Below are positions 13,352-34,844 of a DNA stretch of 37,508 nt, piece after piece. Position numbers and translations under genes: made by a program. How positions within the stretch are numbered: the stretch's first letter is position 1; each line of letters opens with the position of its first letter. This stretch comes from a virus, in the IMG/VR virus record IMGVR_UViG_3300037520_000240, positions 1 through 37,508 of that record, one strand, 5' to 3'. Below the pieces are notes generated by a model that ran no database searches, had not been told where the DNA came from, and saw only the letters and a program-made list of their open reading frames with translations.

Positions 13352-15133
13352 ATGCCAAGCCAAATTATGCCCACAGTAAACTTGCTGAAGCTGCCGGACC
13401 CAGCCGCGCAGACCGCGAAGTACGTCAACATGATGAACGCGACGCGGCAGCAGGAAGCGTCACAACGTCAAGCCGACATAGCGCAGAAAACGCTAGACTT
13501 GAAGACGAAAGAAGACGTGCGCGAAGAGGCAAAGCAAGGACCAACCTTAACTAAGATGGAGCAAGACAACTTAGTTCAGGCATTAAGCATATTCCGCGAA
13601 GGTGTAACAGACATAGCGGATGGTGATTTGGCGGCGGCAGAAGCGTTACGCGCTGACTTAGTAGCGCGAGTACCACCTTACGAAAAGTTTATTCTGCCTG
13701 CATCGCAATGGACGCCTGAATATAAATTTCAGTTAAAAACAACGGCTGAACAAGAAATACAAAAAACTATTGCGACGCCGACAACTGAAACTATTTTTGG
13801 ACCTAAAAATGAAATCTTAGAGTTGACTAAAGGCGGCGCCCCCGGCGTCGCTGGTTTAAGGCCGGTATTAAATAAGCCTGCAGCCGGCACTACACCCACA
13901 GTCGCGCCTAGAACACCTGTTGTACCAACCGCGGCGCCAGCAACGCCACCGCAGATGCCAGCCGGTGACGGCGGACAGCTTGACGCCTTTCAGCAGGATC
14001 ATGTTCGCCGAATGAAAGAAGAGTTGGGTATGACCAATACCCCTGCGTCCTTTACGCGCGGCGGCATGGGGCAGATGTCGCCTGACATGGTTCCCGCCAT
14101 TATTGACTCTGCAATGAAAACTGGCGTCATGGCGCAGATCGACCTTGATCAGATGTTAGCGATGACGCCGCCGCAAGCCCGTCAAGGAATTGTGGATGTA
14201 CTCCGCAGCAATAACGTTTCGTTGCAAGCTGACGCACCGTCGCTGGTAACCAGCGGAATGAACCAGCAGCAGCCAATGGCGCCTAACCCCGTAGGAAGAC
14301 AGCAGTCGCAGTACGCTGTTATGCGCGGGCAAACGCCCCAAGCGTCGCTTGCTGATCTAGGCAGCGCGCCACCAGTGCAGAATACGCTGGCACAGACAAA
14401 CGTAATGGGCCAACAAGCCTATGGTCGCAGTGCTTCGCCGACATCGCCGATCCCCGGATCGTCGTTGGTCGCACCGCAAGTGTTAGGTAACCAGAAAGCG
14501 GCTGAAACTGCTGGGTCGGAAAACGTTAAGGTCGGTACTGAGCCGCGTATTGTAGCGGGCACCGAACGCGCAAAACGGCTGGAAAAGTTGCGCGGTGAAA
14601 TGCCAATCGCGCAGGCTGAAACGCAGACTTTGGTAAACAGTCTTACCGGACGGATTAACGCAATCGACGAGTATTTGCGTTCGGGTTCTCGCAACAGCAT
14701 TATTGGTGCTGTTGAAGGCCGTATACCTAAGTTCTTTCAGTCCGAAACGCGTTCCGACGCGCAGAAACTTTACGATTACATCACGAGCAATACCGTTCTT
14801 CAAAAACTTATTGATGACAGGGGGCAAACCGAAACTGGCGGGTCCCCGCAGGGTGTTGTGTCCGACGCCGATTTAAAAGTAGCTGCACAAGCATCCACCA
14901 AGCTGACGCAAACAGGGTCAGAGCGTAAGCAGGAAATTGAAATGCAGCGTTTGCGCGACGAGTTGTACCGCACACGCGGCCAAGCAATACAAAAATACAA
15001 CAATGTATACCGCGAAGTCATGAAAGAGGCGCCTGAACTTGGATTAAAAATTCGTCCTGTAGCACCAAAATATAAATCGGCTCCGCAAACACCGACAAGA
15101 GCTAAGTCCCTTCAAAATATTTTTGGCGGTTAA
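13352..15133 (+). CDS. Second ejection/internal virion protein (P22 gp20 position)
   Basis: 593 aa, helical, rich in Ala, Gln and Pro. The N-terminal ~60 residues form a coiled-coil-like helix (TRQQEASQRQADIAQKTLDL). A Pro/Ala linker (about 185-215) separates it from a Gln/Met-rich middle, and a charged helical C-terminus (~400-560) follows. No enzymatic motif is seen. It lies between gp7-like and gp16-like genes and matches ejection proteins in size and composition, so the call rests mainly on position. Confidence 0.72.
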   Translation: MPSQIMPTVNLLKLPDPAAQTAKYVNMMNATRQQEASQRQADIAQKTLDLKTKEDVREEAKQGPTLTKMEQDNLVQALSIFREGVTDIADGDLAAAEALRADLVARVPPYEKFILPASQWTPEYKFQLKTTAEQEIQKTIATPTTETIFGPKNEILELTKGGAPGVAGLRPVLNKPAAGTTPTVAPRTPVVPTAAPATPPQMPAGDGGQLDAFQQDHVRRMKEELGMTNTPASFTRGGMGQMSPDMVPAIIDSAMKTGVMAQIDLDQMLAMTPPQARQGIVDVLRSNNVSLQADAPSLVTSGMNQQQPMAPNPVGRQQSQYAVMRGQTPQASLADLGSAPPVQNTLAQTNVMGQQAYGRSASPTSPIPGSSLVAPQVLGNQKAAETAGSENVKVGTEPRIVAGTERAKRLEKLRGEMPIAQAETQTLVNSLTGRINAIDEYLRSGSRNSIIGAVEGRIPKFFQSETRSDAQKLYDYITSNTVLQKLIDDRGQTETGGSPQGVVSDADLKVAAQASTKLTQTGSERKQEIEMQRLRDELYRTRGQAIQKYNNVYREVMKEAPELGLKIRPVAPKYKSAPQTPTRAKSLQNIFGG

Positions 15134-19824: not shown

Positions 19825-20012
19825 TTCTTTAGCCCTATCATAATCTCGACGCGCTCCCGCGCTGTCCGCATGGCAGAGTAACGTTGGTGCAACCGCCGAG
19901 CAATGGCTGGCCGCTTGTGCGTCTTCAGTTCAGCGTCCAGCGCCTGCTTTAGCTGGTCTTCCGTAAGGTCAGACAGCACGGCAATCATCGACCGCCAGTT
20001 TAGTTTACTCAT
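19821..20012 (-). CDS. Unrecognised 63-aa basic helical protein
   Basis: 63 aa, helical and basic (LTEDQLKQALDAELKTHKRP, then ARRLHQRYSAMRTARERVEI). It follows the SNF2-type helicase with an 8-base overlap and precedes the 43-aa gene, so it belongs to that leftward operon. It could be a nucleic-acid-binding accessory, but no known motif is visible. Confidence 0.65.
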   Translation of the reverse strand: MSKLNWRSMIAVLSDLTEDQLKQALDAELKTHKRPAIARRLHQRYSAMRTARERVEIMIGLKK

Positions 20013-21318
20013 TTTTCAATTCCTCTAATGCTATGTCGGACACCGCACGCTTGTCGTGCAGCGCCGCCCATATGCGTTCGTCAATACTCTTTTCCGTCAA
20101 CATCACATAGACCCAGACATCCTTTGTCTGGCCGCTGCGGTGCAGGCGCCCGACCGTCTGCTCATACAACTCCAGCGACCACGGCAGCGACAGGAACACC
20201 ATGTGGCATCCGCCATGCTGTAGGTTCAGCCCGTGGCCGGCTGACTTAGGGTGGGCCAGCAGCAACTCGACCTCGCCTGCGTTCCAGCGTTCAATGACGT
20301 TGTCATCATCCATCGTCTGCGCGTGCGGGAAGCGGCGCTTTAGTTCCGCCAACTCTTCCTGATAGGTGTACGCAATGATAGTGTTGGCCCGCTGGTTCTC
20401 CGCCAGCAACTCTTCCAGCCGGTCAAACTTGTGGCTGCTGAACCAAATGGACGGCGTGCCAGCGTCGCGGTTGTAGACAAAGCCAGACGCCATCTGTTGC
20501 AGCTTGGTTGTTACTGCCGCTGCGTTCTGCGCTACGATCTGGTCATCACCAAAGCGCACGACATACTCGCGCTTCATCTTTTCGTATGGCGCGCGGTCTG
20601 TCAGCGCGACGCGTACCTCAGTGACATGGCATGGCGGCAGCTTGTCCTTGTACTCGCCCGGCTCCAGCACGAACGTCGCAGGGCGGATGCGCTTCATGAC
20701 TTGCTCCAGCGCGCCTGCTGCCGGAACCCATTGGCCGAAGTCGCGGTTGGTGCAGATGAAATACTGCTGCATGAACGCACCCTTGGCGCGGCCCAGCAGC
20801 CCTTGGTCAATGATCTTGCACTGGCCGAAGACATCCTCAAGGCCGTTCGACGTGAACGAGCCGGTCAAGCCCCAGCGTATCTTCATGGACGCCATCATCT
20901 TTTCTAGCGCCTTGAAGCGTTTGCCTGACGGGTTCTTCAGCCGCGTCAGTTCGTCGAACACAACGCCGTCGAAACTGGATAAGTCCTCTAGCTTATCTAG
21001 GTTGTCATAGTTAATAACCACCACACTGGCATCGCTCTGAAGTGCTGCGATGCGTTGCGACGGCGTGCCGACAGCAAGTGCAGGGGCGATGCCAGACCAC
21101 ATGGGCGCTTCCACCGGCCACACATCTGTGCAGACACGCTTCGGCGCCACCACCAGCCAGCGGTTGACGATGCCGTCGCGCAGCATCTCATCCATCGCCG
21201 TCAAGGTGATGGCTGTCTTACCAGCACCGACAGGCGCAAGGATCATGGCGCGGTCACGCTCGTACAGGAACGTTGCCGCCTGCTCCTGATATGGCCTTAG
21301 CTGAAGCGTTTGAGCCAT
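20005..21318 (-). CDS. SNF2-type (SF2) DNA helicase/translocase
   Basis: 437 aa from ATG 21318 (MAQTLQLRPYQEQAA); the frame is open further upstream but that would run deep into the nuclease gene. Motif I is APVGAGKT (K34), motif II FDEL (D122, E123), motif III GLTGSF (150-155). The C-terminal RecA domain has motif VI QTVGRLHRSGQTKDV (about 387-401). The Q-like RPYQEQA and HRSGQ identify SNF2-family ATPases. These are small in phages and usually sit next to VRR-NUC nucleases, as here (22-base overlap). Role in recombination or replication restart is inferred. Confidence 0.88.
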   Translation of the reverse strand: MAQTLQLRPYQEQAATFLYERDRAMILAPVGAGKTAITLTAMDEMLRDGIVNRWLVVAPKRVCTDVWPVEAPMWSGIAPALAVGTPSQRIAALQSDASVVVINYDNLDKLEDLSSFDGVVFDELTRLKNPSGKRFKALEKMMASMKIRWGLTGSFTSNGLEDVFGQCKIIDQGLLGRAKGAFMQQYFICTNRDFGQWVPAAGALEQVMKRIRPATFVLEPGEYKDKLPPCHVTEVRVALTDRAPYEKMKREYVVRFGDDQIVAQNAAAVTTKLQQMASGFVYNRDAGTPSIWFSSHKFDRLEELLAENQRANTIIAYTYQEELAELKRRFPHAQTMDDDNVIERWNAGEVELLLAHPKSAGHGLNLQHGGCHMVFLSLPWSLELYEQTVGRLHRSGQTKDVWVYVMLTEKSIDERIWAALHDKRAVSDIALEELKNE

Positions 21319-21572
21319 GCGTCTATGTCCTCTATCGACCACAGACACGCGTAGTGCTGCTTGGTGTGTGCCATCTCTTCTGAAAAGATACGTTGCAACG
21401 CAGACAGGCGTCCGTTGGGCTGCTTGATCTCTATGAACCAAGCCTCACCGTTAGGCATACAGGCTATGCGGTCGGCAACACCTATCTGTGTCACGCTGCG
21501 GAACTTGTAGGCAAAACCGCCTAGCGCCCGCACACGTTTACAGAAGTACCGCTCTATTTCTTTCTCAGTCAT
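21297..21572 (-). CDS. VRR-NUC domain nuclease
   Basis: 91 aa, the size of a stand-alone VRR-NUC protein. The active site is visible as GVADRIACMP (D34), EAWFIEIKQPNG (E48, K50) and the following Q60, the PD-(D/E)XK pattern of this family, which includes FAN1 and many phage nucleases. Stand-alone phage versions cut branched DNA such as Holliday junctions. It is the first gene of the leftward block and overlaps the helicase, so the pair probably works together. The ribosome-binding site (GGAG) lies rather far from the ATG. Confidence 0.88.
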   Translation of the reverse strand: MTEKEIERYFCKRVRALGGFAYKFRSVTQIGVADRIACMPNGEAWFIEIKQPNGRLSALQRIFSEEMAHTKQHYACLWSIEDIDAWLKRFS

Positions 21573-23538: not shown

Positions 23539-25494
23539 ATGACTAAACTTTGGATCGATTTCGAAACGCGCAGCCGGTGCGACCTTCGCAGCCGCGGCGT
23601 GTACAATTACGCGCAGGACACCAGCACCGACGTGCTATGTATGTCATACGCATTTGATGACGAAGACGTGCGGACGTGGCTACCCAGTGAGCCTTTCCCG
23701 CAAGCCGTGCATGATCACAAGGGGCTGGTGTACGCGCACAACGCAGCGTTTGAGCGCCTGATATTCTGGTATGTCCTTCAGATAGATTTTAAGCTGGAGC
23801 AGTTCTACTGCACCGCAGCCCAAGCCCGCGCCAACTGCGCGCCGGGTAGCCTTGAGGATGTGGGCCGCTTTGCTGGCGCTACCATGAAGAAAGACCACCG
23901 CGGCGGGCAACTGATCCGCGCGCTGTCCATCCCGCAAGGCACCGGCGAGTTTCGCCAAGACGCAAAGCTGATGCAAGAGATGGTTGACTATTGCGAACAG
24001 GACGTGCGGGCCATGCGTGCCATAGCGCAGGCGCAGCGCCCGCTGTCCGACGAAGAGTTGGCCGACTATCACATCAACGAGCGGATCAACGACCGCGGGG
24101 TATTGCTTGACAGGCCGCTGGCGTTGGCAGCGGTGCGCTACGCTGAAGCTGAATTGGCTGAGATACAAAACATCGTCGCAGAGGTGACGCATGGCGAGAT
24201 TAAGTCCGTCCGCAGCCCCAAGATGAAGGATTGGGTGTTAGCTAGGGTAGGGCCACAGGCTGTAGCCGTGGCGACCGTGATGAAGGATGGCGTCGAGAAG
24301 CTGTCCATTGACAAGAACGTGCGCGCCAACTTACTTGTGCTGGCAGAGGAGAACCCAGATGAAGTACCGGCGGAAGTTGCGGAAGTCATCCAGTGCGCGG
24401 ACGATCTGTGGGCATCGTCCGTCGCTAAATTCCAACGTGCAGCGGCGCTTGCTGATGCGGAGGATTTTCGCGTTAGAGGAGCGTTCGTATTTTCTGGAGG
24501 CAGTGCTACTGGGCGCGCTTCATCGTTTGGGCTTCAGGTCCATAACTTCCCAAGAAAGTGCGCCGCAGACCCTGCATTAGTAAGGCAGGCTATGGTGCGC
24601 GGGCACAGGATTGTCCCTGATCATGGCCGGCGCGTAACAGACGTGCTGAAAGGTATGCTGCGCCCATCACTGATGGCTGACAAAGGCAAGCGCCTTGTGG
24701 TTGCCGATTGGGCTGCGATTGAAGCGCGGGTGACGCCGTGGGCGTCCGACAGTGCCTTCGGTGAGGGCAAGTTGGCAATCTTTGCCAAGGGTGAAGATGT
24801 GTACAAGCACAACGCTATGGCGACCTTTGCTGTCAAATATGATGACGTTAACAAAGACCAGCGCCAGATCGGCAAGGTTCAAGAGTTAGCCTGTGGCTTT
24901 GCAGGCGGCGTCGGTGCGTTCGCCAGCATGGGCCGCATCTATGGTCTGATAATGTCAGAAAGCAACGCCAAGCGGATGGTGGACGCATGGCGCAGGGCTA
25001 ACAAGTGGGCCGTGCCGTACTGGGCTGGCCTTGAAGAGACTTATATGCGTGCCATGCGGAACAAGAACTGTGAGTTTACGACGGGCCGCGTCACATATTT
25101 ATTCGACGGACTGCATCTTTGGTATGCGCTTCCGTCTGGACGTGTGTTATGTTATCCTTTCGCCCGTTTCGACGAGGAAGGCAACCTGACCTACGCGAAG
25201 GCTTCTTGGAAGCCCGCCGCTGATGCAAAGGAGTGGCCTAGGGCGCGGCTATGGCGCGGTTTGGCGTGTGAGAACATCACGCAGGCTGTCGCTAACGACT
25301 TGCTGCGCTACGCCTTGCGCCGGCTGGACGATGTAGTCTTGCACATCCACGATGAAATCGTCTTGGAAGTGCCAGAAGCAGATGCAGAGGCCGCAGCAGC
25401 GCGGCTGGTGCAAGTTATGTGTGAGCCGCCACCTTGGGCAGCAGGGCTACCCCTGAACGCTGAAGTGGCAATTATGGAACGTTATGGCAAATAA
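23539..25494 (+). CDS. Family A DNA polymerase with 3'-5' exonuclease
   Basis: 651 aa. The N-terminus holds Exo I (LWIDFETRS, D7 and E9), with the rest of the DEDD exonuclease through ~180. The polymerase motifs are A (VVADWAAIEARV, D390), B (RQIGKVQELACGFAGGVGAF, ~443-463) and C (LHIHDEIVLEVPE, D605). This layout matches the T7-independent PolA group of many phages with a Gly-rich motif B. It would be the replicative polymerase. It sits between the SSB candidate and the primase-helicase; the last gene begins 10 bases after its stop. Confidence 0.92.
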   Translation: MTKLWIDFETRSRCDLRSRGVYNYAQDTSTDVLCMSYAFDDEDVRTWLPSEPFPQAVHDHKGLVYAHNAAFERLIFWYVLQIDFKLEQFYCTAAQARANCAPGSLEDVGRFAGATMKKDHRGGQLIRALSIPQGTGEFRQDAKLMQEMVDYCEQDVRAMRAIAQAQRPLSDEELADYHINERINDRGVLLDRPLALAAVRYAEAELAEIQNIVAEVTHGEIKSVRSPKMKDWVLARVGPQAVAVATVMKDGVEKLSIDKNVRANLLVLAEENPDEVPAEVAEVIQCADDLWASSVAKFQRAAALADAEDFRVRGAFVFSGGSATGRASSFGLQVHNFPRKCAADPALVRQAMVRGHRIVPDHGRRVTDVLKGMLRPSLMADKGKRLVVADWAAIEARVTPWASDSAFGEGKLAIFAKGEDVYKHNAMATFAVKYDDVNKDQRQIGKVQELACGFAGGVGAFASMGRIYGLIMSESNAKRMVDAWRRANKWAVPYWAGLEETYMRAMRNKNCEFTTGRVTYLFDGLHLWYALPSGRVLCYPFARFDEEGNLTYAKASWKPAADAKEWPRARLWRGLACENITQAVANDLLRYALRRLDDVVLHIHDEIVLEVPEADAEAAAARLVQVMCEPPPWAAGLPLNAEVAIMERYGK

Positions 25495-25504
25495 GGAGCA
25501 AGCG

Positions 25505-27853
25505 ATGAGTGAGGATCGCACGAAATTCATAGACTACATAGTTGGTTTAGCCGCTGATACAGTGGGCGAGACAGCTTTGTTAGTGCGTCAGAAGCCCACA
25601 CGCGGCGAGGACGGCAACCTGATCTACCATGCAGATGGCGCGCCGAAGGCCACCTTCCCTGCGTTCCTGCCTGAGAAGGCGCGCATCAAGGATGATGAGG
25701 CATGGTATGTGAATACCGGCTCGTTCGTCGTTGACCGCTTTGTAGACGGCAAGCCGGCTGCAAAGTCCAGCAACGTCGAGTTCGTCCTGTTTATGATGCT
25801 GGATGACATCGGCACAAAATCTAAGACGCCGCCGCTTGACCCGACATGGATACTAGAAACCAGCGAAGGTTCGTTTCAGTGGGGCTATGCGTTCAACGAA
25901 CAACCAAACAAAGGCGACTTCTGCGCTGCCGTCAAGGCTATTGCGGACGCCGGCTACACTGATCCGGGCGCGACCAACGCTGTCCGTAACTGTCGCATCC
26001 CCGGCAGTATCAACTTAAAGAGCGGACGCGGCAACTTTCCTGCGCGGCTGGTCGAGTTCCACCCAGACCGCGAATACACTTTAGAGCAGATTTGTAGTGC
26101 GTTAGGCGTTACGCCAGAAGAAGGCGACACGGCGGACTATAAAGCCGTAAAGATACGCGACACTGGAATGGACAACGTCCTGACATGGTTGAGCGAAAAG
26201 AACCTAGTCCTCAGCGCGCCTAACAACGACGGCTGGTGCGGCATTGTCTGCCCTAACCATCAGGAACACAGCGACGGCATGATCGAAGCGCGCTACAAGC
26301 CGCTGGATCGTTCGTTCTGCTGCTACCACGGCCATTGCCAAGACTTAGACAGCCGGACGTTTCTTGATTGGGTAGCCAACGAAGGTGGCCCGAAGGCAAC
26401 GCCGGGGTTGCGTGATGAACTGATCGCTGAACGGATGGCGTCGATGATGGACAAGATTTCGCCTACGGAAGCCTTCCCTGACGAAGCCGCAGCGCGTGTG
26501 CGTGAGGTCGAAAAGAAAGAGGCAGGACGGCTGGAACAAAGCGAGTGGTTTGAGCGTTTCGCTTATATACAGTCTGATGACTGCTATTTCGACATGGTCA
26601 CACGTCAAGAGATAGCGCGTAACGTCTTTAACGCCCTGTTCCGTCACGTTGACTGTCGCTCCATCCACAAGAAGACGCAGCGCGTGCAATCATCCATCTA
26701 TTTTGATGAGCGTCGGCAGGATCGCGGCGCGCCAGCATTGGCAGCCGTGACGTTTGCCGCTGGTGATGATGTGCTAGTGACGCGCGACGGGTTGGTCTAC
26801 GGCAACAGGTGGACAAACGCCCGCCCTGACGTAGCTGAAAGCGACAAGATTGCAGACCATGATGTCGAGCCTTGGCTTGAGCATTGCCGCAACCTGATTA
26901 CGGATGACAGGGATTTAGACCATATCCTTAACGCTATGGCGTTCAAGATACAGAACCCCCGCGTTAAGATTAACCATGCCATCCTAATTGGCGGCGACGA
27001 AGGCGCGGGCAAGGATACTATATTCCAGCCGTTTCTATGGGCGCTTGGCGGCAGTAACTGGCGCAACAGGTCGGTCATCGAAGCTGGCGGATTGGAAAGC
27101 CAGTGGGGTTATGCGCTTGAGGCTGAAGTGGTCATCCTGAACGAGTTAAAGGAACCAGAGGCAAGAGAGCGCCGAGCGATGGCTAACAAGTTAAAGCCGC
27201 TGATCGCTGCGCCGCCTGCAACGCTGTCGGTTAACCGTAAGGGTATGCACCCTTACGACTTGGTCAACCGCTTGATGGTGCTTGCCTACACGAACGACTC
27301 GCTACCTATCACCCTGCCTACGCAGGATCGCCGTTGGTTCTGCGTCTGGACGCACGCGCCGCGCATGACAACGCCAGCAGCCGACGCGCTGTGGGGCTGG
27401 TATGAGACAGGCGGCTATGAGAAGTGCGCCGCTTGGCTGCACCAGCGCGACGTTTCGTCGTTCAACCCTTCTGCGCCGCCGCCAGTGACCGAATGGAAGC
27501 TGAACATGGTCGAGCATGGTATGAGCGCCGCCGAAAGCTATCTGGTCGAGTTGATGCGCCAGCGTGGGGGTCTGTTTGCTGATGGTGTTATCGGTGGGCC
27601 GTTCCACCGCATCTGCGACTTGCTTGGGCCTCTATTGCCTGTCGGCATAAAGGTTCCACCGGCTGCACTGCTTCATGCGTTTAAGGAAGCTGGCTGGATC
27701 GACATGGGCCGCCTCAATTCAAAAGAACATATGAACAAAAAGCATATCTTTGCCGCGCCTGAAGTGATCCAAAAATATAACAAATCAGAGTTGCGCCGCA
27801 TGGCGGAAGTGTTGCCAAACAGTAGTATTATGCCAACGCTAGGCAAGAATTGA
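25505..27853 (+). CDS. Primase-helicase (AEP-like primase plus SF3/DUF5906 helicase)
   Basis: 782 aa from ATG 25505, chosen because AAGGAG lies 7 bases upstream; ATG 25484 lies inside the polymerase gene. The N-terminal part looks like an archaeo-eukaryotic primase: LFMMLDDIG with metal-binding D100/D101 and RNCRIPGSINLKSG (161-174). A Cys/His knuckle follows (C245...C249, H252, C272/C273, H275/H277, C278). The C-terminus is a DUF5906/SF3-type ATPase: GGDEGAGKDT (K503) and VVILNELKE (E547), as in the phage NrS-1 primase-polymerase. It would unwind and prime at the origin; whether it recognises the iterons is not known. Confidence 0.85.
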   Translation: MSEDRTKFIDYIVGLAADTVGETALLVRQKPTRGEDGNLIYHADGAPKATFPAFLPEKARIKDDEAWYVNTGSFVVDRFVDGKPAAKSSNVEFVLFMMLDDIGTKSKTPPLDPTWILETSEGSFQWGYAFNEQPNKGDFCAAVKAIADAGYTDPGATNAVRNCRIPGSINLKSGRGNFPARLVEFHPDREYTLEQICSALGVTPEEGDTADYKAVKIRDTGMDNVLTWLSEKNLVLSAPNNDGWCGIVCPNHQEHSDGMIEARYKPLDRSFCCYHGHCQDLDSRTFLDWVANEGGPKATPGLRDELIAERMASMMDKISPTEAFPDEAAARVREVEKKEAGRLEQSEWFERFAYIQSDDCYFDMVTRQEIARNVFNALFRHVDCRSIHKKTQRVQSSIYFDERRQDRGAPALAAVTFAAGDDVLVTRDGLVYGNRWTNARPDVAESDKIADHDVEPWLEHCRNLITDDRDLDHILNAMAFKIQNPRVKINHAILIGGDEGAGKDTIFQPFLWALGGSNWRNRSVIEAGGLESQWGYALEAEVVILNELKEPEARERRAMANKLKPLIAAPPATLSVNRKGMHPYDLVNRLMVLAYTNDSLPITLPTQDRRWFCVWTHAPRMTTPAADALWGWYETGGYEKCAAWLHQRDVSSFNPSAPPPVTEWKLNMVEHGMSAAESYLVELMRQRGGLFADGVIGGPFHRICDLLGPLLPVGIKVPPAALLHAFKEAGWIDMGRLNSKEHMNKKHIFAAPEVIQKYNKSELRRMAEVLPNSSIMPTLGKN

Positions 27854-27934
27854 CAACCAATGGGTTGCAGTGATATGTGGGCATAGTTGGTAATGCTCTA
27901 CTAACCCTCTTGGTGTCGCTTTGCTGACCCTTTT

Positions 27935-27967
27935 AAGCCCCCTGCGTCCTCACTCCGCAGGGGGCTT
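27935..27967 (+). terminator. Strong rho-independent terminator
   Basis: AAGCCCCCTGCG (27935-27946) and CGCAGGGGGCTT (27956-27967) form a perfect 12-bp stem with a 9-base loop, followed by TTCTTTT. It ends the rightward replication operon 81 bases after the primase-helicase stop. For leftward transcripts the flank lacks a U-tract. The 27854-27934 gap holds no gene I can support. Confidence 0.9.
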
Positions 27968-27972
27968 TTCTT

Positions 27973-28155
27973 TTACTCATCTTTTAATGCTGCTTCGGCA
28001 TCTTCAATCAATTCTATCGGGGGCCAGCGCAGATAGGCCACATGGTCAGCGGTTATCACGCCGAGGGATTCCAGATATTCCATCAGCCGATAGGCTAAGG
28101 TAGCTTCGGCCCGCTCGGTGTATCTGTCGGGCAGCGCGTCATCATCGTCGATCAT
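27973..28155 (-). CDS. Unrecognised 60-aa acidic protein
   Basis: 60 aa from ATG 28155, which overlaps the upstream stop in ATGA; an in-frame ATG 12 bases earlier lies inside the upstream gene. The protein starts MIDDDDALPDRYTERAEAT and is acidic and helical, with LAYRLMEYLESLGVITADHV. It is the last gene of the leftward operon. No family recognised. Confidence 0.65.
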   Translation of the reverse strand: MIDDDDALPDRYTERAEATLAYRLMEYLESLGVITADHVAYLRWPPIELIEDAEAALKDE

Positions 28156-28337
28156 TCTGGTGTCCAATCTTTAGGGTAGGGCACTGACTTGTAACTGGTT
28201 CTGTAAAGTCTGCCGTTTTCGTCGTAATGCTCGGTCACTGTTGAGCCGTCATCGTTCAGGACAACGGCAAGGTCGCCAAGCAAGTGCAATGGTCGGCCCG
28301 TCTTAGCATCCATTCGGTATTTTATTTCTTTGGTCAT
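28152..28337 (-). CDS. Unrecognised 61-aa protein
   Basis: 61 aa, MTKEIKYRMDAKTGRPL onward, with a beta-hairpin-like middle (DLAVVLNDDGSTVTEHYDEN GRLYR). Its start and stop overlap neighbours by 4 bases (ATGA), which supports coding. No motif or membrane segment. Small DNA-mimic or regulatory proteins can look like this, but I have no specific evidence. Confidence 0.65.
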   Translation of the reverse strand: MTKEIKYRMDAKTGRPLHLLGDLAVVLNDDGSTVTEHYDENGRLYRTSYKSVPYPKDWTPE

Positions 28338-28513
28338 TTCTTTTCCTCAATCCAAAAGTGATGCACCATGTAATGCGTAGCGGTTTCGTCTGTCACCCTA
28401 TCGCCTATCCCGCCGCTTGCGGTGGTCAGGTGATTGGTGAAGGTGTTGGGGTCTTTAGACGAACGCACTGCTGGAATGCGTGTTAGTTTCATATATCCAT
28501 TTTGGTCGGTCAT
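28334..28513 (-). CDS. Unrecognised 59-aa protein
   Basis: 59 aa from ATG 28513 (MTDQNGYMKLTRIPAVRS), chosen because it overlaps the stop of the 55-aa gene in ATGA; the frame is open further upstream. The sequence is polar with a C-terminal THYMVHHFWIEEKK. No family recognised. Confidence 0.6.
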   Translation of the reverse strand: MTDQNGYMKLTRIPAVRSSKDPNTFTNHLTTASGGIGDRVTDETATHYMVHHFWIEEKK

Positions 28514-28677
28514 TTGCGTAGCAGCCCTTCCAGTTCGCGGATCGCCCATTGGATGCCTTGGATTTCAACGCCCATGTCATGAAGACCATGTGCGTCCTTG
28601 GCGTGTAGGAACACTTCGGACATATCCCAGCACACCCGCTCACGTTTGCGTAGTGCTTCAATGCGTTCTTTGATCAT
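28510..28677 (-). CDS. Unrecognised 55-aa helical protein
   Basis: 55 aa: MIKERIEALRKRERVCWDMS, then a His-containing middle (HAKDAHGLHD) and a C-terminal helix ending ELEGLLRK. It has an AAGGATGAG ribosome-binding site and a 4-base overlap with the next gene. The alternating basic/acidic helices suggest a small coiled coil. Family unknown. Confidence 0.6.
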   Translation of the reverse strand: MIKERIEALRKRERVCWDMSEVFLHAKDAHGLHDMGVEIQGIQWAIRELEGLLRK

Positions 28678-28678
28678 G

Positions 28679-28864
28679 TCATCTCATCCTTGTAATTGTG
28701 GTCAAACCATCCTTAGTTCGACAAATAAAATGCTTATGATGGCGCTGCCCATACTGGCTAACGTTGCGGCTGGTGCGCTTGGCATCACCCTTGTTAATGG
28801 CTGGCATGGTCGCGCTATCGCCTACAGCCATAGTGCCCATTGGGTAGAACATTGGTCGGCTCAC
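28679..28864 (-). CDS. Doubtful 61-aa basic protein (GTG start)
   Basis: 61 aa from GTG 28864, which overlaps the upstream stop in GTGA and ends 1 base before the start of the next gene. It is basic, with RHHKHFICRTKDGLTTITRM at the end. Tight packing supports coding; lack of ordered structure and an alternative start codon weaken it. The frame on the opposite strand (28598-28930) has no ribosome-binding site and runs against the operon. Confidence 0.45.
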   Translation of the reverse strand: MSRPMFYPMGTMAVGDSATMPAINKGDAKRTSRNVSQYGQRHHKHFICRTKDGLTTITRMR

Positions 28865-29073
28865 GTTATCAGTCCCCGCGCAATACAGGCTTGGCGCAGA
28901 TGCTCAGGCCGGACGCCCCACAACTTATAGACGTTGCTATAGTCGCGGCTAACGTCTGACAGGTGCGCTTCCTGCGCCCGTAGCGCAGCCTTTAGCTTGT
29001 CATGCTCTCGCAAGGCATCTGCTGCCCGTTGCAGCACTTCGGCTTGTTCGTTGGTATATGTGTTAATAATCAT
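28861..29073 (-). CDS. Unrecognised 70-aa coiled-coil protein
   Basis: 70 aa. An N-terminal coiled-coil helix (EQAEVLQRAADALREHDKLK) is followed by SDVSRDYSNVYKLWGVRPEHLRQ, which has a helix-turn-helix feel but is not a clear match. It starts 2 bases after the 111-aa gene. Function unknown. Confidence 0.65.
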   Translation of the reverse strand: MIINTYTNEQAEVLQRAADALREHDKLKAALRAQEAHLSDVSRDYSNVYKLWGVRPEHLRQACIARGLIT

Positions 29074-29074
29074 T

Positions 29075-29410
29075 TTATAGCTCCACTGTTATGTCGGGTT
29101 TCGCCCGTTTGTCGTTTAGTCGGTTAAGCCAAAAGGTTTGATCATCACCAAATGACCGTGCTGCGTGATACTTGAACAGCGCAACGGCTAGCGGGTCGTA
29201 TCCCTTCCACTTGTGCGTCACGATCAGGGGCGATGGCATCATGGCTTCTAAGCTGGTGCGTGTCGGTCGCTCTTTAGCCTTTGCCACAGCGTCTAAGTCG
29301 CGCAGCGTTAGGTTGATGTTAAATTCGCGGTTGATGTGTTGCATCACGGCGGTTTTGTCGGTGATATAGCCGCACAGGTGCTGGACGCGCTTTTTTACTG
29401 CGTGATCCAT
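29075..29410 (-). CDS. Unrecognised 111-aa protein, possible DNA binder
   Basis: 111 aa, basic. The first ~45 residues (ITDKTAVMQHINREFNINL, then TLRDLDAVAKAKERPTR) could form a helix-turn-helix in which a short N-terminal helix precedes a recognition helix. The C-terminal half (KYHAARSFGDDQTFWLNRLN) is charged and aromatic. It overlaps the TM-protein stop by one base. A regulator of the early/late switch is one possibility; evidence is weak. Confidence 0.65.
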   Translation of the reverse strand: MDHAVKKRVQHLCGYITDKTAVMQHINREFNINLTLRDLDAVAKAKERPTRTSLEAMMPSPLIVTHKWKGYDPLAVALFKYHAARSFGDDQTFWLNRLNDKRAKPDITVEL

Positions 29411-29610
29411 TAGCTTCTATCCCGCTTGACGTATTTACCCGTTTTAGGATCGCGCATTACGGCGTTGCGTTTCCACAGTAGCAATTCTTTTGTGTCGCGC
29501 ACCCATGCGTTGCGGAACCAACTGTATTGCCGGTGCGTATCCCATAGGATAGCCAATGTTGCGGCTTGTGCGGCTAACAGAACCGCAATTGTCATATATT
29601 CGGGTGTCAT
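29410..29610 (-). CDS. Small single-TM protein with basic tail
   Basis: 66 aa from ATG 29610, chosen for GGAGG 7 bases upstream; the frame opens 24 codons earlier without a comparable site. One N-terminal transmembrane segment (MTIAVLLAAQAATLAILW, residues ~6-23) is followed by a basic cytoplasmic tail (VRDTKELLLWKRNAVMRDPK). Small early phage membrane proteins of this type can be superinfection-exclusion or anti-defense factors; no specific match here. Confidence 0.65.
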   Translation of the reverse strand: MTPEYMTIAVLLAAQAATLAILWDTHRQYSWFRNAWVRDTKELLLWKRNAVMRDPKTGKYVKRDRS

Positions 29611-29612
29611 AG

Positions 29613-29672
29613 TTAATCCTCCAATATTAGTGTTAATAGAAATAGGGCTGCGCCAGCGAGTAGCGCCGTCAT
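29613..29672 (-). CDS. 19-aa hydrophobic micro-protein
   Basis: MTALLAGAALFLLTLILED: nearly the whole peptide is one possible transmembrane helix. The ATG overlaps the stop of the 69-aa gene in ATGA, and its stop is 2 bases before the next ATG. The GGAGG that serves the next gene lies inside its 3' end, so translation may be coupled. Too short to be sure from one genome. Confidence 0.4.
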   Translation of the reverse strand: MTALLAGAALFLLTLILED

Positions 29673-29878
29673 TCGGCTGCATCGTCGCGCAGGGCGTTAT
29701 TCTCAGCCACTAGCCGGTCATATAGCATCTGTAGATGCTCTAGTTCATCTTCGACGGTCAACAGTTCGCTAAGGCGCTCTGCCAGCACTACAGCCAGTTC
29801 GTGATCACGGTCTAATGCCGTGCGAACTAGTTCGGCATCTGACAGCATGGTCAGATAGGTTCTACCGTGGTTTGTCAT
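29669..29878 (-). CDS. Unrecognised 69-aa coiled-coil protein
   Basis: 69 aa. The second half is a clear leucine-heptad coiled coil (VVLAERLSELLTVEDELEHL, then QMLYDRLVAENNALRDD). The N-terminus MTNHGRTYLTMLSDAELVRT carries a short polar lead. Stops and starts are tightly packed with the neighbours. Oligomerisation is likely; function unknown. Confidence 0.65.
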   Translation of the reverse strand: MTNHGRTYLTMLSDAELVRTALDRDHELAVVLAERLSELLTVEDELEHLQMLYDRLVAENNALRDDAAE

Positions 29879-29881
29879 TGC

Positions 29882-30109
29882 TCAGTTCCCTCTTGCTTTA
29901 GCTATTGCTTCACGGGCTTCTATTGCGCTGCCCGATAGGTGGCTGTCAGCCAGCCCCAGCGCCAACGCATCTTCAAGCAATGCTTCCAGCGCCAACAATA
30001 GGTCTGGCGCAGCATCATGCATCAATTTGCGGCGGCGGTTGCGCTCTTGCGCGATAGCCTCATAATCAATGTAAGCTACACGCTGGCTTGTGGTTTCAAA
30101 TTTAGTCAT
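29882..30109 (-). CDS. Unrecognised 75-aa helical protein
   Basis: 75 aa. IAQERNRRRKLMHDAAPDLL followed by LALEALLEDALALGLAD and EAREAIAKARGN resembles a small helical phage protein motif (AAPDLLLALE...A...AI.KA.G) that I have seen repeatedly in phage early regions, annotated only as hypothetical. Function unknown. Confidence 0.7.
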   Translation of the reverse strand: MTKFETTSQRVAYIDYEAIAQERNRRRKLMHDAAPDLLLALEALLEDALALGLADSHLSGSAIEAREAIAKARGN

Positions 30110-30112
30110 TTC

Positions 30113-30202
30113 TCAGTTTCCTTTTAACGTAATGATTATTGCGGTTAATGATAGCAGCAGCACGGCGGCGAAACCGGCTGTGGCAAGAATGTGCGCGATC
30201 AT
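30113..30202 (-). CDS. 29-aa single-TM micro-protein
   Basis: MIAHILATAGFAAVLLLSLT plus AIIITLKGN: one transmembrane helix with a short basic end. The ATG overlaps the upstream stop (ATGA) and its stop is 3 bases before the next ATG. This tight fit in the operon is the argument for coding. Confidence 0.5.
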   Translation of the reverse strand: MIAHILATAGFAAVLLLSLTAIIITLKGN

Positions 30203-30405
30203 GCGTTTGTGTCCTGCTGGCGGCGATCTAAACGTATAAGAAAGGCGGTTAGTTCATCGACTAGGCGATTAGTCGCCGCCTCGTCTAGTTTGCTGCTGAA
30301 CGCATGGTTTACGTTTGCGCGCTTTAACATCTCGAAAAATGCGTCTGTCGCTACGTCCGCAAGGTGATCAAAATTGGGCTCTGATATTTGTTTATCGGAT
30401 AGCAT
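30199..30405 (-). CDS. Unrecognised 68-aa protein
   Basis: 68 aa from ATG 30405, chosen for AGGAG 8-9 bases upstream; the longer open frame starts within the preceding gene. Helical (FDHLADVATDAFFEMLKRAN; LVDELTAFLIRLDRRQQ). The mixture of acidic and hydrophobic residues suggests a small helical bundle. Function unknown. Confidence 0.65.
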   Translation of the reverse strand: MLSDKQISEPNFDHLADVATDAFFEMLKRANVNHAFSSKLDEAATNRLVDELTAFLIRLDRRQQDTNA

Positions 30406-30441
30406 CTCACTCACTCCTATATTGGCACTAGCGCCATAAAG

Positions 30442-30465
30442 GCCGCGCAGGGTTAGCCGCGCGGC
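30442..30465 (-). other. Intergenic hairpin
   Basis: GCCGCGC (30442-30448) and GCGCGGC (30459-30465) form a 7-bp GC stem with a 10-base loop, in the 70-base gap between the 73-aa and 68-aa genes. On the leftward transcript CTTTATGG follows, not a real U-tract. It may be a processing or stability stem. Confidence 0.4.
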
Positions 30466-30475
30466 TAATATGGGG

Positions 30476-30697
30476 TTAGGCTGCACCTATTGATTGATTA
30501 TAAATGAATACTGCCGGTTCTACGCCCAAGGCCGCCGCGAATTCGTCGGCAGACAAAACAGCGTCAACGTGAAGTTCGTGGGCGTATGTCAAAAAGCCGT
30601 TATCCAGCAAAATAAGCATATCAGTCATAGTGTGCTTGACCAGATGCCAAGCGCCGTCCGCCCTTGTTTTTACATAATCGCCGGGGAAAATAATCAT
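30476..30697 (-). CDS. Unrecognised 73-aa protein with SH3-like start
   Basis: 73 aa, start set by AGGAG upstream of ATG 30697. MIIFPGDYVKTRADGAWHLV resembles the first strands of a small beta-barrel (SH3/KOW-like), followed by LILLDNGFLTYAHELHVDAV and a helix. It is the second gene after the leftward promoter. Possibly a small regulatory or anti-host protein; no family match. Confidence 0.65.
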   Translation of the reverse strand: MIIFPGDYVKTRADGAWHLVKHTMTDMLILLDNGFLTYAHELHVDAVLSADEFAAALGVEPAVFIYNQSIGAA

Positions 30698-30719
30698 AGT
30701 GTCTCACTCCTATTGATGT

Positions 30720-30747
30720 CACCGGGTGACGGGATTGTCACCCGGTG
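30720..30747 (-). other. Strong intergenic hairpin after first leftward gene
   Basis: CACCGGGTGAC (30720-30730) and GTCACCCGGTG (30737-30747) form a perfect 11-bp stem with a 6-base loop. It starts 9 bases downstream of the stop of the 112-aa gene. With no U-tract on either strand it is better read as a partial terminator, RNA-processing site or protein-binding palindrome. Confidence 0.55.
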
Positions 30748-30755
30748 GCGTTAGT

Positions 30756-31094
30756 TTACGCTGCGATTGCAGCTTGCGTCCGAACATGGGCTGGCAAGTC
30801 TTGCAACTTACAGGCGACATTGAGCGCAACAATCATTGGGCCGCATTCATATGCGATGCACGATGCGCGTTCGATTGCGGGCAAATCATCGCGCCCGGCG
30901 AAATCATATGCCCTCAAGCAAGCGTTGAACGATGCAACGGCACCTTGACGCCCGCGCTCATTATTAGTGAATGATGCCCACGAATCATGCGCTTCGGCTT
31001 GCTCAATAAGCGCAGCGCGGAATGCGCCATTGTGGCATTCGATTGACCGGGTAAGAATGTCCCGGGCGGTTGGGTTGGTTGGCAAATCATACAT
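30756..31094 (-). CDS. First leftward early gene, unrecognised 112-aa protein
   Basis: 112 aa from ATG 31094, with GGAG 8 bases upstream. The frame opens further upstream but would read the GACGTC iterons as RHSGRHSGRHS and cross the promoter, so the longer start is rejected. The protein is helical (LTRSIECHNGAFRAALIEQA; FNACLRAYDFAGRDDLPAIE) with three cysteines. Being promoter-proximal and separated from the rest by a hairpin, it may be the most abundant early product. Function unknown. Confidence 0.65.
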   Translation of the reverse strand: MYDLPTNPTARDILTRSIECHNGAFRAALIEQAEAHDSWASFTNNERGRQGAVASFNACLRAYDFAGRDDLPAIERASCIAYECGPMIVALNVACKLQDLPAHVRTQAAIAA

Positions 31095-31125
31095 ATTAGT
31101 TACTCCATTGCGTTGTTGATGCCCT

Positions 31126-31153
31126 CTTATATACCCTCTTAAAATACTGTCAA
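31126..31153 (-). promoter_or_regulatory. Near-consensus leftward sigma-70 promoter
   Basis: On the minus strand TTGACA (31153-31148), a 16-base spacer and TATAAG (31131-31126). A perfect -35 and a 5/6 -10. Transcription would start near 31119, giving a ~25-base leader before ATG 31094. Likely the main early promoter. Confidence 0.75.
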
Positions 31154-31196
31154 CAACAAAATGTGTTGCAGATAAAAAAGATTTAGGGCGTTTGGA

Positions 31197-31341
31197 ATGA
31201 CGTCCCGAATGACGTCCCGAATGACGTCCCAAATGACAACCGATTATAACGAAAATAAATCTGTGGATAACTTACACAAAATGGACGTCATCGGACGTCA
31301 TTAGGGACGTCATTATTTAGAGGCAAATGACGTCCGGATTA
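31197..31341. other. Putative replication origin core: iterons and DnaA box
   Basis: GACGTC-centred iterons of consensus AATGACGTCCC lie at 31199, 31211 and 31223 (direct, 12-base period), a degenerate fourth near 31233, then at 31284, 31294 and 31306 in opposite orientation and at 31329 in direct orientation. A perfect DnaA box (TGTGGATAA, complement of TTATCCACA) sits at 31262-31270 between the two groups. Further GACGTC copies lie at 31486, 31582 and 31591. The AT-rich tract 31371-31440 adjoins. The layout resembles iteron-controlled origins. Confidence 0.7.
31262..31270 (-). promoter_or_regulatory. DnaA box (perfect consensus)
   Basis: TGTGGATAA on the plus strand is TTATCCACA on the minus strand, the full-strength Escherichia coli-type DnaA box. 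It lies between two oppositely oriented iteron clusters. Confidence 0.75.
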
Positions 31342-31370
31342 TTGGCGGAATTGCGCCGTTTGGGGATGCT

Positions 31371-31440
31371 AATTGTCATATTGCCATTATATTTGTTTAA
31401 AGTCAGGTTTTAAAAAATGGGTATATATATAACCTATACG
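31371..31440. other. AT-rich tract, possible DNA-unwinding element
   Basis: About 70 bases of high AT content including TTTTAAAAAA and TATATATATAA, next to the iterons and DnaA box. It is the most AT-rich stretch near the putative origin and overlaps the second leftward promoter candidate. Confidence 0.5.
31386..31414 (-). promoter_or_regulatory. Second leftward promoter candidate crossing the origin
   Basis: On the minus strand TTTAAA (31414-31409), a 17-base spacer and a perfect TATAAT (31391-31386). A transcript would cross the iterons and DnaA box, as transcription that activates or primes an origin does. AT-rich DNA makes chance matches more likely. Confidence 0.4.
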
Positions 31441-31496
31441 GTACGCTGTACGCATTTCGTCAGCGACTGGTGTTTTCGAAATCATGACGTCCCTTA

Positions 31497-31778
31497 CTGT
31501 ATTAACACAGTAACACACCTAGCTGTTTGTTCTCATGGTTGACGTTAACGTCACGCATTCCCCAGTGAATTAAATTGTCATGACGTCCGTGACGTCTGCT
31601 GGTGTATTAATACACTAACACACCTAGCTAGCTAGCAATGTGTTTTTTCCAATTCGCGCAAGCGCCGAAAGGGAAAGGCCATTTCTATTCCAGCAGGAAC
31701 ATAAGCAGAACGCTAATCACTGTGTTAACACAGCAACACAGCTAATGCTGGCAGCACTGTGTTAGTGTATTAATACAG
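31497..31778. repeat. Four-copy 14-bp palindrome array, operator candidate
   Basis: Copies of consensus CTGTRTTAAYACAG at 31497-31510, 31602-31615 (GTGTATTAATACAC, perfect), 31720-31733 (CTGTGTTAACACAG, perfect) and 31765-31778. The first two also share the 3' flank TAACACACCTAGCT (31511-31524, 31616-31629), and the last two share ACTGTGTTA. They lie between the origin iterons and the terS promoter. Binding of a dimeric regulator to the palindromes is inferred. Confidence 0.65.
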
Positions 31779-31858
31779 TAAATATTTAGCCGGGGTGGGT
31801 AGGGCCGGTGGGCCGCGTGACTGTGCCGGGTAGGGTCGCAAACAATTTTTATTTTTTT

Positions 31859-31887
31859 TTGCATCTTAGAACGCAACACACTATAGT
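31859..31887 (+). promoter_or_regulatory. Late/rightward promoter for the terminase operon, likely leaderless
   Basis: TTGCAT (31859-31864), a 17-base spacer and TATAGT (31882-31887), preceded by a long T-tract (31846-31860) that may bend DNA. The expected start point, 6-8 bases later, falls at 31894-31896, i.e. on the ATG at 31895, and no Shine-Dalgarno is present. Confidence 0.55.
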
Positions 31888-31894
31888 ACGCCCA

Positions 31895-32404
31895 ATGACT
31901 TTCTACTCACTGCCATTTACACCAGAGCGGGTGCAAGCCACCGAGTCGCGGCTGGAGTCTATCTATGAAGCTGCCCGCTACGGCCTAAAGGGTGACAGCC
32001 TAGCTATGGCCGCCGGCATGACACCCAAACAATTTCGTGTGTTGGCCGACGCAGACCCGCTGGTCGAGATGGCAGAGATCAAAGGTCGTGCCGACGGCGA
32101 GATGGTAGCGGCCAAAACCATGTACGAAGCGGCACGCGATGGCGACAGCAAGGCTGCGCTGGAGATACTCAAGCATCAGCACGGCTGGGTAGCCAAGCAG
32201 CAGATCGACGTAAACATAGACCAACAGATAAGTATCACAGGCGCGCTAGAAAAAGCACAGACGCGCGTCATCGAAGGGCTGTACACAGAACTGCCCCGAC
32301 TAGAGGAAGAGACTAATGGCAGACAAATTGACACCGGAAGAGCAGGAAGTCTTGGACTATCACCGTCGCAACTTAGCGACAGGGATGTATCAGAAGAACG
32401 CTGA
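31895..32404 (+). CDS. terS: Terminase small subunit
   Basis: 169 aa from ATG 31895 (MTFYSLPFTPERVQ); an in-frame GTG at 31808 would add a chance extension. Residues ~28-45 (GDSLAMAAGMTPKQFRVLAD) form a helix-turn-helix and residues ~70-100 a helical oligomerisation region (AAKTMYEAARDGDSKAALEI), followed by KHQHGW. This is the usual plan of small terminases, which recognise packaging DNA, and the large terminase lies nearby. The 3' end overlaps the next gene by 89 bases, unusual for a phage. Confidence 0.72.
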   Translation: MTFYSLPFTPERVQATESRLESIYEAARYGLKGDSLAMAAGMTPKQFRVLADADPLVEMAEIKGRADGEMVAAKTMYEAARDGDSKAALEILKHQHGWVAKQQIDVNIDQQISITGALEKAQTRVIEGLYTELPRLEEETNGRQIDTGRAGSLGLSPSQLSDRDVSEER

Positions 32405-34595: not shown

Positions 34596-34844
34596 ATGCC
34601 AGCTAACAAATTCACTAGAGCGTTGTACAAGACAGGCACTGTAGCATCTGAGAAAGCTGCCATTGCCAACCGCGACCCAGCCCGCAAGGCAGCCGCTAAA
34701 GAGATCACGGCGCGCGAAGGCTCGACAAGCCCAGCCGGCGGACGCGCAGTCAAGATGCCAGCTAAACCTGCTGCACCAAAGATGCAGAAAGTTATCAGCA
34801 TGACTACAAACATGAAGTCATCGCCAATGGGTAAAAAGCGTTAA
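34596..34844 (+). CDS. Small basic protein, 82 aa
   Basis: 82 aa, Ala/Lys-rich: MPANKFTRALYKTGTVASEK, ARKAAAKEITAREGS and a PKMQKVISMTTNMKSSPMGK-like tail. Starts right after the previous stop. Belongs with its neighbours to a cluster of four small basic proteins; no domain is recognised. Confidence 0.65.
   Translation: MPANKFTRALYKTGTVASEKAAIANRDPARKAAAKEITAREGSTSPAGGRAVKMPAKPAAPKMQKVISMTTNMKSSPMGKKR

Follow-up and report, generated by a model that had tools for sequence, protein, structure and literature searches.

Wing residues of a phage primase-helicase covary with the iterons of a putative origin upstream of a small-gene operon

Introduction

The 37,508-base IMG/VR record IMGVR_UViG_3300037520_000240, from an uncultivated phage, was analyzed over its whole length (hereafter, the window) and carries a leftward operon of small genes at 27973..31094. 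The question raised by this locus is what the operon is and how it relates to the DNA around it. A sequence-only reading had taken the operon for the best place in the window to find an undescribed system. It was overtaken by its neighbor, as the most striking feature lies directly upstream, where the promoter region resembles an iteron origin. Quite probably, the operon is a cargo slot whose promoter sits inside an iteron origin, to which the phage's primase-helicase binds through its C-terminal winged helix. The lineage is podovirus-like, and its annotated kin are MW202483 (Manatee Spring) and, more distantly, phage DSL-LC05.

Main features of the locus:
25484..27853, plus strand: primase-helicase of 789 amino acids (aa), the proposed initiator; wing residues 744-751 at about 27713-27736
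27973..31094, minus strand: leftward operon of 14 small genes (29-112 aa), taken as open reading frames (ORFs) with sensible starts
31095..31897, no strand: putative replication origin between g1 and the terminase genes; 803 bp, G+C 0.423 against 0.540 in the window
31197..31588, mixed strands: nine exact iterons GGACGTCAT; minus at 31197, 31209, 31221, 31327, 31484 and 31580; plus at 31283, 31293 and 31305
approximately within 31259..31271, minus strand: DnaA box TTATCCACA
31898..32404, plus strand: gene before the large terminase, taken as the small terminase from its position and the DSL-LC05 annotation

Results and Discussion

Iterons of the Intergenic Region

All nine exact copies of GGACGTCAT in the window were located inside 31197-31588. 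Relatives were collected by three scans of viral contigs, and 12 loci repeating a contig were removed. Of the remaining loci, 98 had the primase-helicase together with the gene preceding the large terminase; those in the same orientation, together with the window, made 94 regions, 77 of them non-redundant. These contigs are metagenomic and may be chimeric. Regions assigned to type A by their commonest repeat held 73 copies within 12.2 kb of interval DNA and none in 200.7 kb outside it. Furthermore, repeats occurred at 4.4-7.3 per kb inside the interval and at 0-0.064 per kb in the fetched DNA outside it. Repressor-style sites spread over the genome were considered and rejected, as none were seen and the repeats were confined to one locus. 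The lowest-G+C 100-nt segment of the record was at 13721 and not in the putative origin.

Among the relatives, the spacing and orientation of the array were similar, and the repeat sequence was altered in concert, giving at least seven types. The repeats of the relatives included TAGGCTAT, CTGGGTCAT, GTAGGTCAT, GTGGACAAT, TTGGGTCAT and GTGRGTCAT, and no type could be assigned by fixed motifs in 14 of the 94 regions. MW202483 had its own array of eight copies of GTTTACAT near the corresponding place, and its wing was different. In addition, N-K-N wings were observed at L011, L045, L028, L044 and L020 together with the diverged repeats AGTTGTCAT, AATTGTCAT, AGTTGCCAT and AAACGTCAT, not GGACGTCAT. 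These loci are possible intermediates of a switch.

One relative, L052, carries type B iterons (TAGGCTAT). Its identity to the window was 90-96% over 25734-27483, 78 and 86% over 27484-27983 (the primase C-terminus), and 87-93% over 27984-29733. The DNA at 29734-31483 was not alignable save for one 51-base piece, and identity returned to 93-96% beyond it. Thus, the wing and the origin differ, and most of the DNA between them is alike. The pattern was less clear-cut for the comparison loci of other types (L009, L015, L032 and L049).

A satellite or unrelated virus with a type A array was also sought among 25 stretches found by exact search for iteron pairs with a 12-bp pitch. The check covered 21 of them, L005, L007, L018 and L164 being left out as existing relatives; 8 held a lone pair and no lineage gene, 13 had lineage genes, and no satellite was found.

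Palindromes like TGTATTAATACA were observed at 31494-31781, before the small terminase gene, and are common to L006, L007, L052 and L015. They are a separate element, perhaps an operator, because L052 and L015, which have other iteron types, share them.

Covariation of the Wing with the Iterons

The core of the primase-helicase was matched by PF19263 (E 2.6e-10, over the cut-off) and by PHROG 1156, DNA primase (E 1.6e-19), and is of the DUF5906/D5/VapE helicase type. The NrS-1 phage primase-polymerase (PDB 6k9c/6k9e) matched the helicase part, residues 474-620, at E 6.9e-5. A model of the C-terminal 165 residues was built with 60 sequences (model residue n is protein residue 624+n). The mean predicted local distance difference test score (pLDDT) was 79, and about 91-93 over residues 735-774. 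The order in the model was helix 726-736, strand 739-744, loop 745-752 and strand 753-757, a helix-strand-loop-strand pattern that is predicted to be a winged helix with its wing. The helix preceding the wing varied little among iteron types; the wing varied.

For 16 proteins, each residue column was tested against repeat type, using 43 close relatives that belong to types A-D. The z values of the primase-helicase were 17.1 (residue 745), 12.6 (751), 11.3 (747), 7.7 (749), 7.3 (744) and 7.1 (750). Ten of its columns exceeded z 6, and the best column of the 15 other proteins reached 4.1. Moreover, in a scan of 7,435 residue-base pairs in 18 proteins, the top pairs joined residue 745 to iteron positions 2 and 4. 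The motif of each region was then called blind to type, as a repeated 9-mer ending in AT. K or R at 747 corresponded to a purine at iteron position 1 in 72/72 regions, and N at 745 to a pyrimidine at position 4, likewise in 72/72. In the 55 regions without N745, G745 occurred with A at position 3 (25/25) and the remaining residues with another base (27/30). Operon genes g5-g9, g12 and g13, as well as other nearby proteins, were examined as iteron readers and rejected, as they had no comparable covariation.

The iteron types cluster by clade. On a tree built from primase-helicase residues 1-640, excluding the trait columns, the traits changed 19 times (747 with position 1) and 13 times (745 with position 4), and all independent pairs agreed (15/15, p 6e-5, and 10/10, p 0.002, respectively). 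In a limited collection of literature searched for the covariation and the lineage name, the covariation was not described for this phage group.

Held-Out Test of the Rules

Three rules were fixed in writing prior to three further contig scans, which gave 185 new loci. After removal of 22 lacking one of the two genes, 58 overlapping the discovery set and 20 duplicates, 85 were left, 5 of them without a call. The strict scores were 71/80, 71/80 and 78/79, and these are the figures to quote. Eleven hold-out loci, all misses except L244, were inspected afterwards. Six of the nine rule-1 misses had the call on the opposite strand of GTGGACA; five of these six hold at least three copies of GTGGACNAT in the rule register, and L299 holds two. 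L303 additionally has three copies of GTGGACAAT, and L338 has three of GGACGTCAT.

Evidence Against and Proposed Mechanism

Several points weigh against the explanation we favor. For the fold, Foldseek found nothing for the C-terminal model at E 0.001, and the listed VIA-align matches, mostly winged-helix domains, had Z values of 3.8-5.8, weak alone. The entries TFIIIC tau138, Pex, cullin WHB, ArgR, PadR and RTP are presumably winged-helix proteins, as judged from their titles. For the covariation, 5 of the 77 regions were omitted: L059, whose C-terminus was missing in the alignment, and L112, L148, L074 and L094, which had no clean repeat. Four of the 72 motifs came from fixed typing and not from the automatic call, and the purine and pyrimidine groups were picked after viewing the discovery data. 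When bases were compared by full identity, the association was high but short of perfect, at 0.84 between 745 and position 2 and 0.61 between 747 and position 1. By the same measure, 0.65 was reached by a small, variable protein encoded at 34596 (n 24-27). A745 with TAGG was an exception at L056, L058 and L082, and N745 accompanied several diverged repeats. In the hold-out, L243 and L245 were true rule-1 exceptions, with ATGGGTCAT where a pyrimidine was expected (L244 had the same call); its contigs were mostly in sampled clades, and the loci are therefore not 80 independent events. For the origin, an exact DnaA box was present in just 27 of the 77 regions, and the cumulative GC skew had no turning point at 31 kb.

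According to the favored explanation, the phage's own primase-helicase would use its C-terminal winged helix to bind the 9-bp iterons. Once loaded there, the helicase would open the DNA, either alone or aided by host DnaA at the neighboring box; it would then prime, and replication would start. This loading mechanism is proposed by inference from Rep of the staphylococcal pathogenicity islands (SaPI) and from Cch2, as given in an excerpt of PMC7581432. Physical binding, origin activity, a DnaA role, early timing and a host-directed role of the cargo are what we infer. Residues 745, 747 and 749-751 of the wing would read the variable iteron bases, and relatives would have switched wing and iterons together many times. 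A bolder form, which we advance only tentatively, is that the wing reads the 9-bp iteron base by base and that joint switching, at least a dozen times, has produced replication-compatibility types within one phage group. A likely driver, by analogy with phage ICP1 and its satellite, the phage-inducible chromosomal island-like element (PLE), would be exploitation of the origin, or attack on it, by competitors or satellites.

Genes of the Operon

Genes and neighboring elements of the operon:
30756-31094, minus strand: g1, rare (4/77 regions)
30476-30697, minus strand: g2, rare (2/77)
30199-30405, minus strand: g3 (3/77)
30113-30202, minus strand: g3b, hydrophobic microprotein of 29 aa (44/77); ratio of nonsynonymous to synonymous substitution rates (dN/dS) 0.25
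29882-30109, minus strand: g4
29669-29878, minus strand: g5 (54/77)
29410-29610, minus strand: g6, 66 aa, N-terminus hydrophobic as judged from the sequence (51/77)
29075-29410, minus strand: g7, 111 aa, N-terminal three-helix module in the model (46/77)
28861-29073, minus strand: g8
28679-28864, minus strand: g9, 61 aa, among the most widely kept (54/77)
28510-28677, minus strand: g10
28334-28513, minus strand: g11
28152-28337, minus strand: g12
27973-28155, minus strand: g13
27937..27965, terminator-like on the plus strand: hairpin, seen in the sequence, where the operon and the primase-helicase gene converge (27946-27965 in the hairpin listing)
31126..31153, minus strand: operon promoter TTGACA-N16-TATAAG, by sequence pattern

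The sequence-only reading had described about 13 genes of 19-112 aa, mostly overlapping by ATGA or GTGA. A leftward run of small genes does fill 27973-31094, but it comprises 14 genes of 29-112 aa, and 4-nt overlaps were found at 5 of the 13 junctions only. The other eight consist of one 1-nt overlap, four gaps of 1-3 nt and three gaps of 58-70 nt. The longer starts of the ORF caller for g1 (31232), g3 (30486) and g6 (29682) were not used because they run into the promoter and iterons or a neighboring gene. As for the strong promoter proposed earlier, TTGACA-N16-TATAAG is present at 31153-31126, but the consensus scanner did not return it, and the scanner found 7 promoters against 6.8 in shuffles. 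The strict pattern was found in 10 of the 77 regions, the window included.

The minus-strand tiling score, written for this analysis, was higher than the plus-strand one in 94/94 regions, the window included. The dN/dS against the window was 0.06-0.56 for 13 of the 14 genes (2 to 58 distinct homologues each), values biased low as the homologues were chosen by protein similarity; for g2, no divergent homologue was found. Moreover, the corrected nonsynonymous/synonymous ratio from nucleotide-level alignments in 77 relatives was 0.07-0.42 for the 14 genes, the g2 value being based on just 3 codon differences. The same count for antisense control ORFs gave 1.16, 0.85, 0.80, 1.07, 0.39 and 0.24, the seventh being not computable; with two low ratios, the test is therefore not clean in every frame. 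The operon genes are real and under purifying selection. Their conservation in relatives holds for a core of g9, g5, g6, g7 and g3b (44-54 of 77 regions) but not for g1, g3 and g2 (2-4 of 77).

That the genes are undescribed was borne out, and the statement that none matches a family was nearly right. Comparison of the 14 genes with described families gave no named match; only g4 reached families, namely two PHROGs of unknown function (E 5.6e-5 and 8.3e-5). PADLOC gave no match at E 0.1 and NCBIfam none better than E 0.005. The missing anti-defence match is weak evidence, because the libraries hold few anti-defence families. No match to annotated phages was found for g9 and g4; in the case of g9, the relative L072 matched PHROG 28399 at E 2e-5. 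The structure model of g7 was helical, and its fold matches were not significant (best row small terminase, E 0.7).

Content of the Slot in Relatives

Tiling of the slot in the 77 non-redundant regions gave 1,342 ORFs in 431 clusters, 92 of which had at least 3 members; these counts contain spurious intergenic ORFs. The first 150 of 169 chosen representatives were scanned against the libraries, and few matched anything named. Pfam at E 0.01 gave 14 families, including GP88, DUF7227, DUF7249, Dam, the DnaA C-terminal helix-turn-helix (HTH) and GcrA. PHROGs at E 0.001 gave 42 families, and the 25 listed include methyltransferases and a RusA-like resolvase. PADLOC gave methyltransferases and a few marginal matches, and NCBIfam a phage N6A methyltransferase, DNA polymerase III beta, DnaA and a weak Lar-like restriction-alleviation match (E 0.006). 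The slot is therefore a mixture of replication, modification and unknown cargo, and it looks like hypervariable, fast-changing cargo. Library matches placed on loci by eye included a DnaA C-terminal HTH-like gene (L124:3864-4109) and a beta-clamp-like gene (L074:4643-5329). The layout of MW202483 (L179, 27500-31719) was as in the window, with a divergent operon containing a DnaA-type HTH gene and a C5 methyltransferase.

An anti-defence or host-takeover role of the operon genes is possible; it is indirectly plausible because the slot of the relatives holds methyltransferases, the weak Lar-like match and replication genes. Whether the operon is mainly an island of such functions, with the repeats incidental, is a separate matter. 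This is compatible with the favored explanation, and we consider it rather unlikely: small genes do turn over fast in this one slot, where methyltransferases and the Lar match occur in relatives, but the 14 genes of the window match no named family, the slot also holds beta-clamp, DnaA HTH and RusA-like genes, and the repeats are left unexplained.

Other Explanations of the Repeats

The repeats might also be operators, through which the primase-helicase or its C-terminal domain regulates the divergent promoters, the origin being elsewhere. The array overlaps the operon promoter region between divergent genes, and covariation reveals recognition, not purpose. However, the protein in question is a primase-helicase, the same place has a DnaA box and lower G+C, and the repeats are confined to this locus and absent from other promoters, which makes this account improbable.

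It is less probable still that another protein reads the repeats and that the wing covaries through linkage or shared ancestry. Too few close homologues of g1-g4, g10, g11 and g3b were available for the covariation test, and genes distant from the region seldom lay on the same contig. Against this, the signal sat in a handful of residues in a single protein and recurred over 19 and 13 changes, and neither the neighboring domains nor the intervening operon genes track the type. Finally, the repeats could serve packaging, with the small terminase as their reader, as the adjoining terminase genes suggest. This option was rejected and is hardly credible: in 43 regions, no terminase column tracks the repeat type, the highest z being 1.6 in the small subunit and 2.5 in the large one.

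Genomic Context and Significance

In the favored explanation, the operon sits between two halves of a replication module, flanked by the initiator and the origin. Elsewhere in the window, a DNA helicase was found at 20005-21441 on the minus strand (PHROG 62, E 4.3e-129), with a nuclease-like neighbor at 21297-21572. Rfam gave a single match, at E 0.099 and under the gathering score. Metagenome-assembled genome contigs holding terminase relatives were labeled Rhodoferax, Burkholderiales, Methylococcaceae and others; the host of DSL-LC05 is a prediction by its authors, according to an excerpt of PMC10611076.

If the explanation is true, the initiator, the origin and the residues that set specificity can be read from sequence alone in a group of uncultivated phages, and which phages could share origins could be predicted. 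The natural wing-iteron pairs would also be a ready set for working out how DNA is read by a wing and not by a recognition helix.

Comparison with Known Systems

The alpha protein of phage P4 is a primase-helicase whose C-terminal part binds iterons. The NrS-1 primase-polymerase is alike in the helicase part, and its match excludes the C-terminal winged helix. SaPI Rep and Cch2 of the staphylococcal cassette chromosome mec (SCCmec) bind iterons via a C-terminal domain, and Cch2 and SaPI5 Rep have a D5/Primase_Cterm-type core (PMC7581432, in excerpt). The likeness is that a C-terminal domain reads short repeats at an origin near the helicase gene (in the phage, both the reading and the origin are predictions from the sequence). 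As far as that excerpt goes, the phage helicase differs in adding an N-terminal primase-like part and in the many natural variants that allow wing residues to be matched to repeat types. Moreover, the SaPI origin is directly downstream of the helicase gene, whereas the phage iterons are 3.3 kb past the gene end, with the variable operon between. Because of this offset, the phage system is said to work like SaPI Rep and Cch2 and not to be a member.

Geminivirus Rep is similar in that the arrangement of iterons is kept within clades, their sequence varies, and the residues of one short region correlate with it (PMC10653810, in excerpt). However, geminiviruses are single-stranded DNA plant viruses with an N-terminal rolling-circle Rep, so both the protein and the replication mode are unrelated. 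In PLE, RepA and the iterons covary and are swapped as modules, and a swap alters susceptibility to the ICP1 origin-directed nuclease Odn (PMC8263062, in excerpt). The switching of an origin-initiator pair, proposed for the phage and recognizable in outline in geminiviruses as well, is the shared trait. According to the same excerpt, PLE are satellites with RepA_N initiators, semi-palindromic iterons of about 30 bp and few types, whereas the phage has a primase-helicase, 9-bp iterons and at least seven types.

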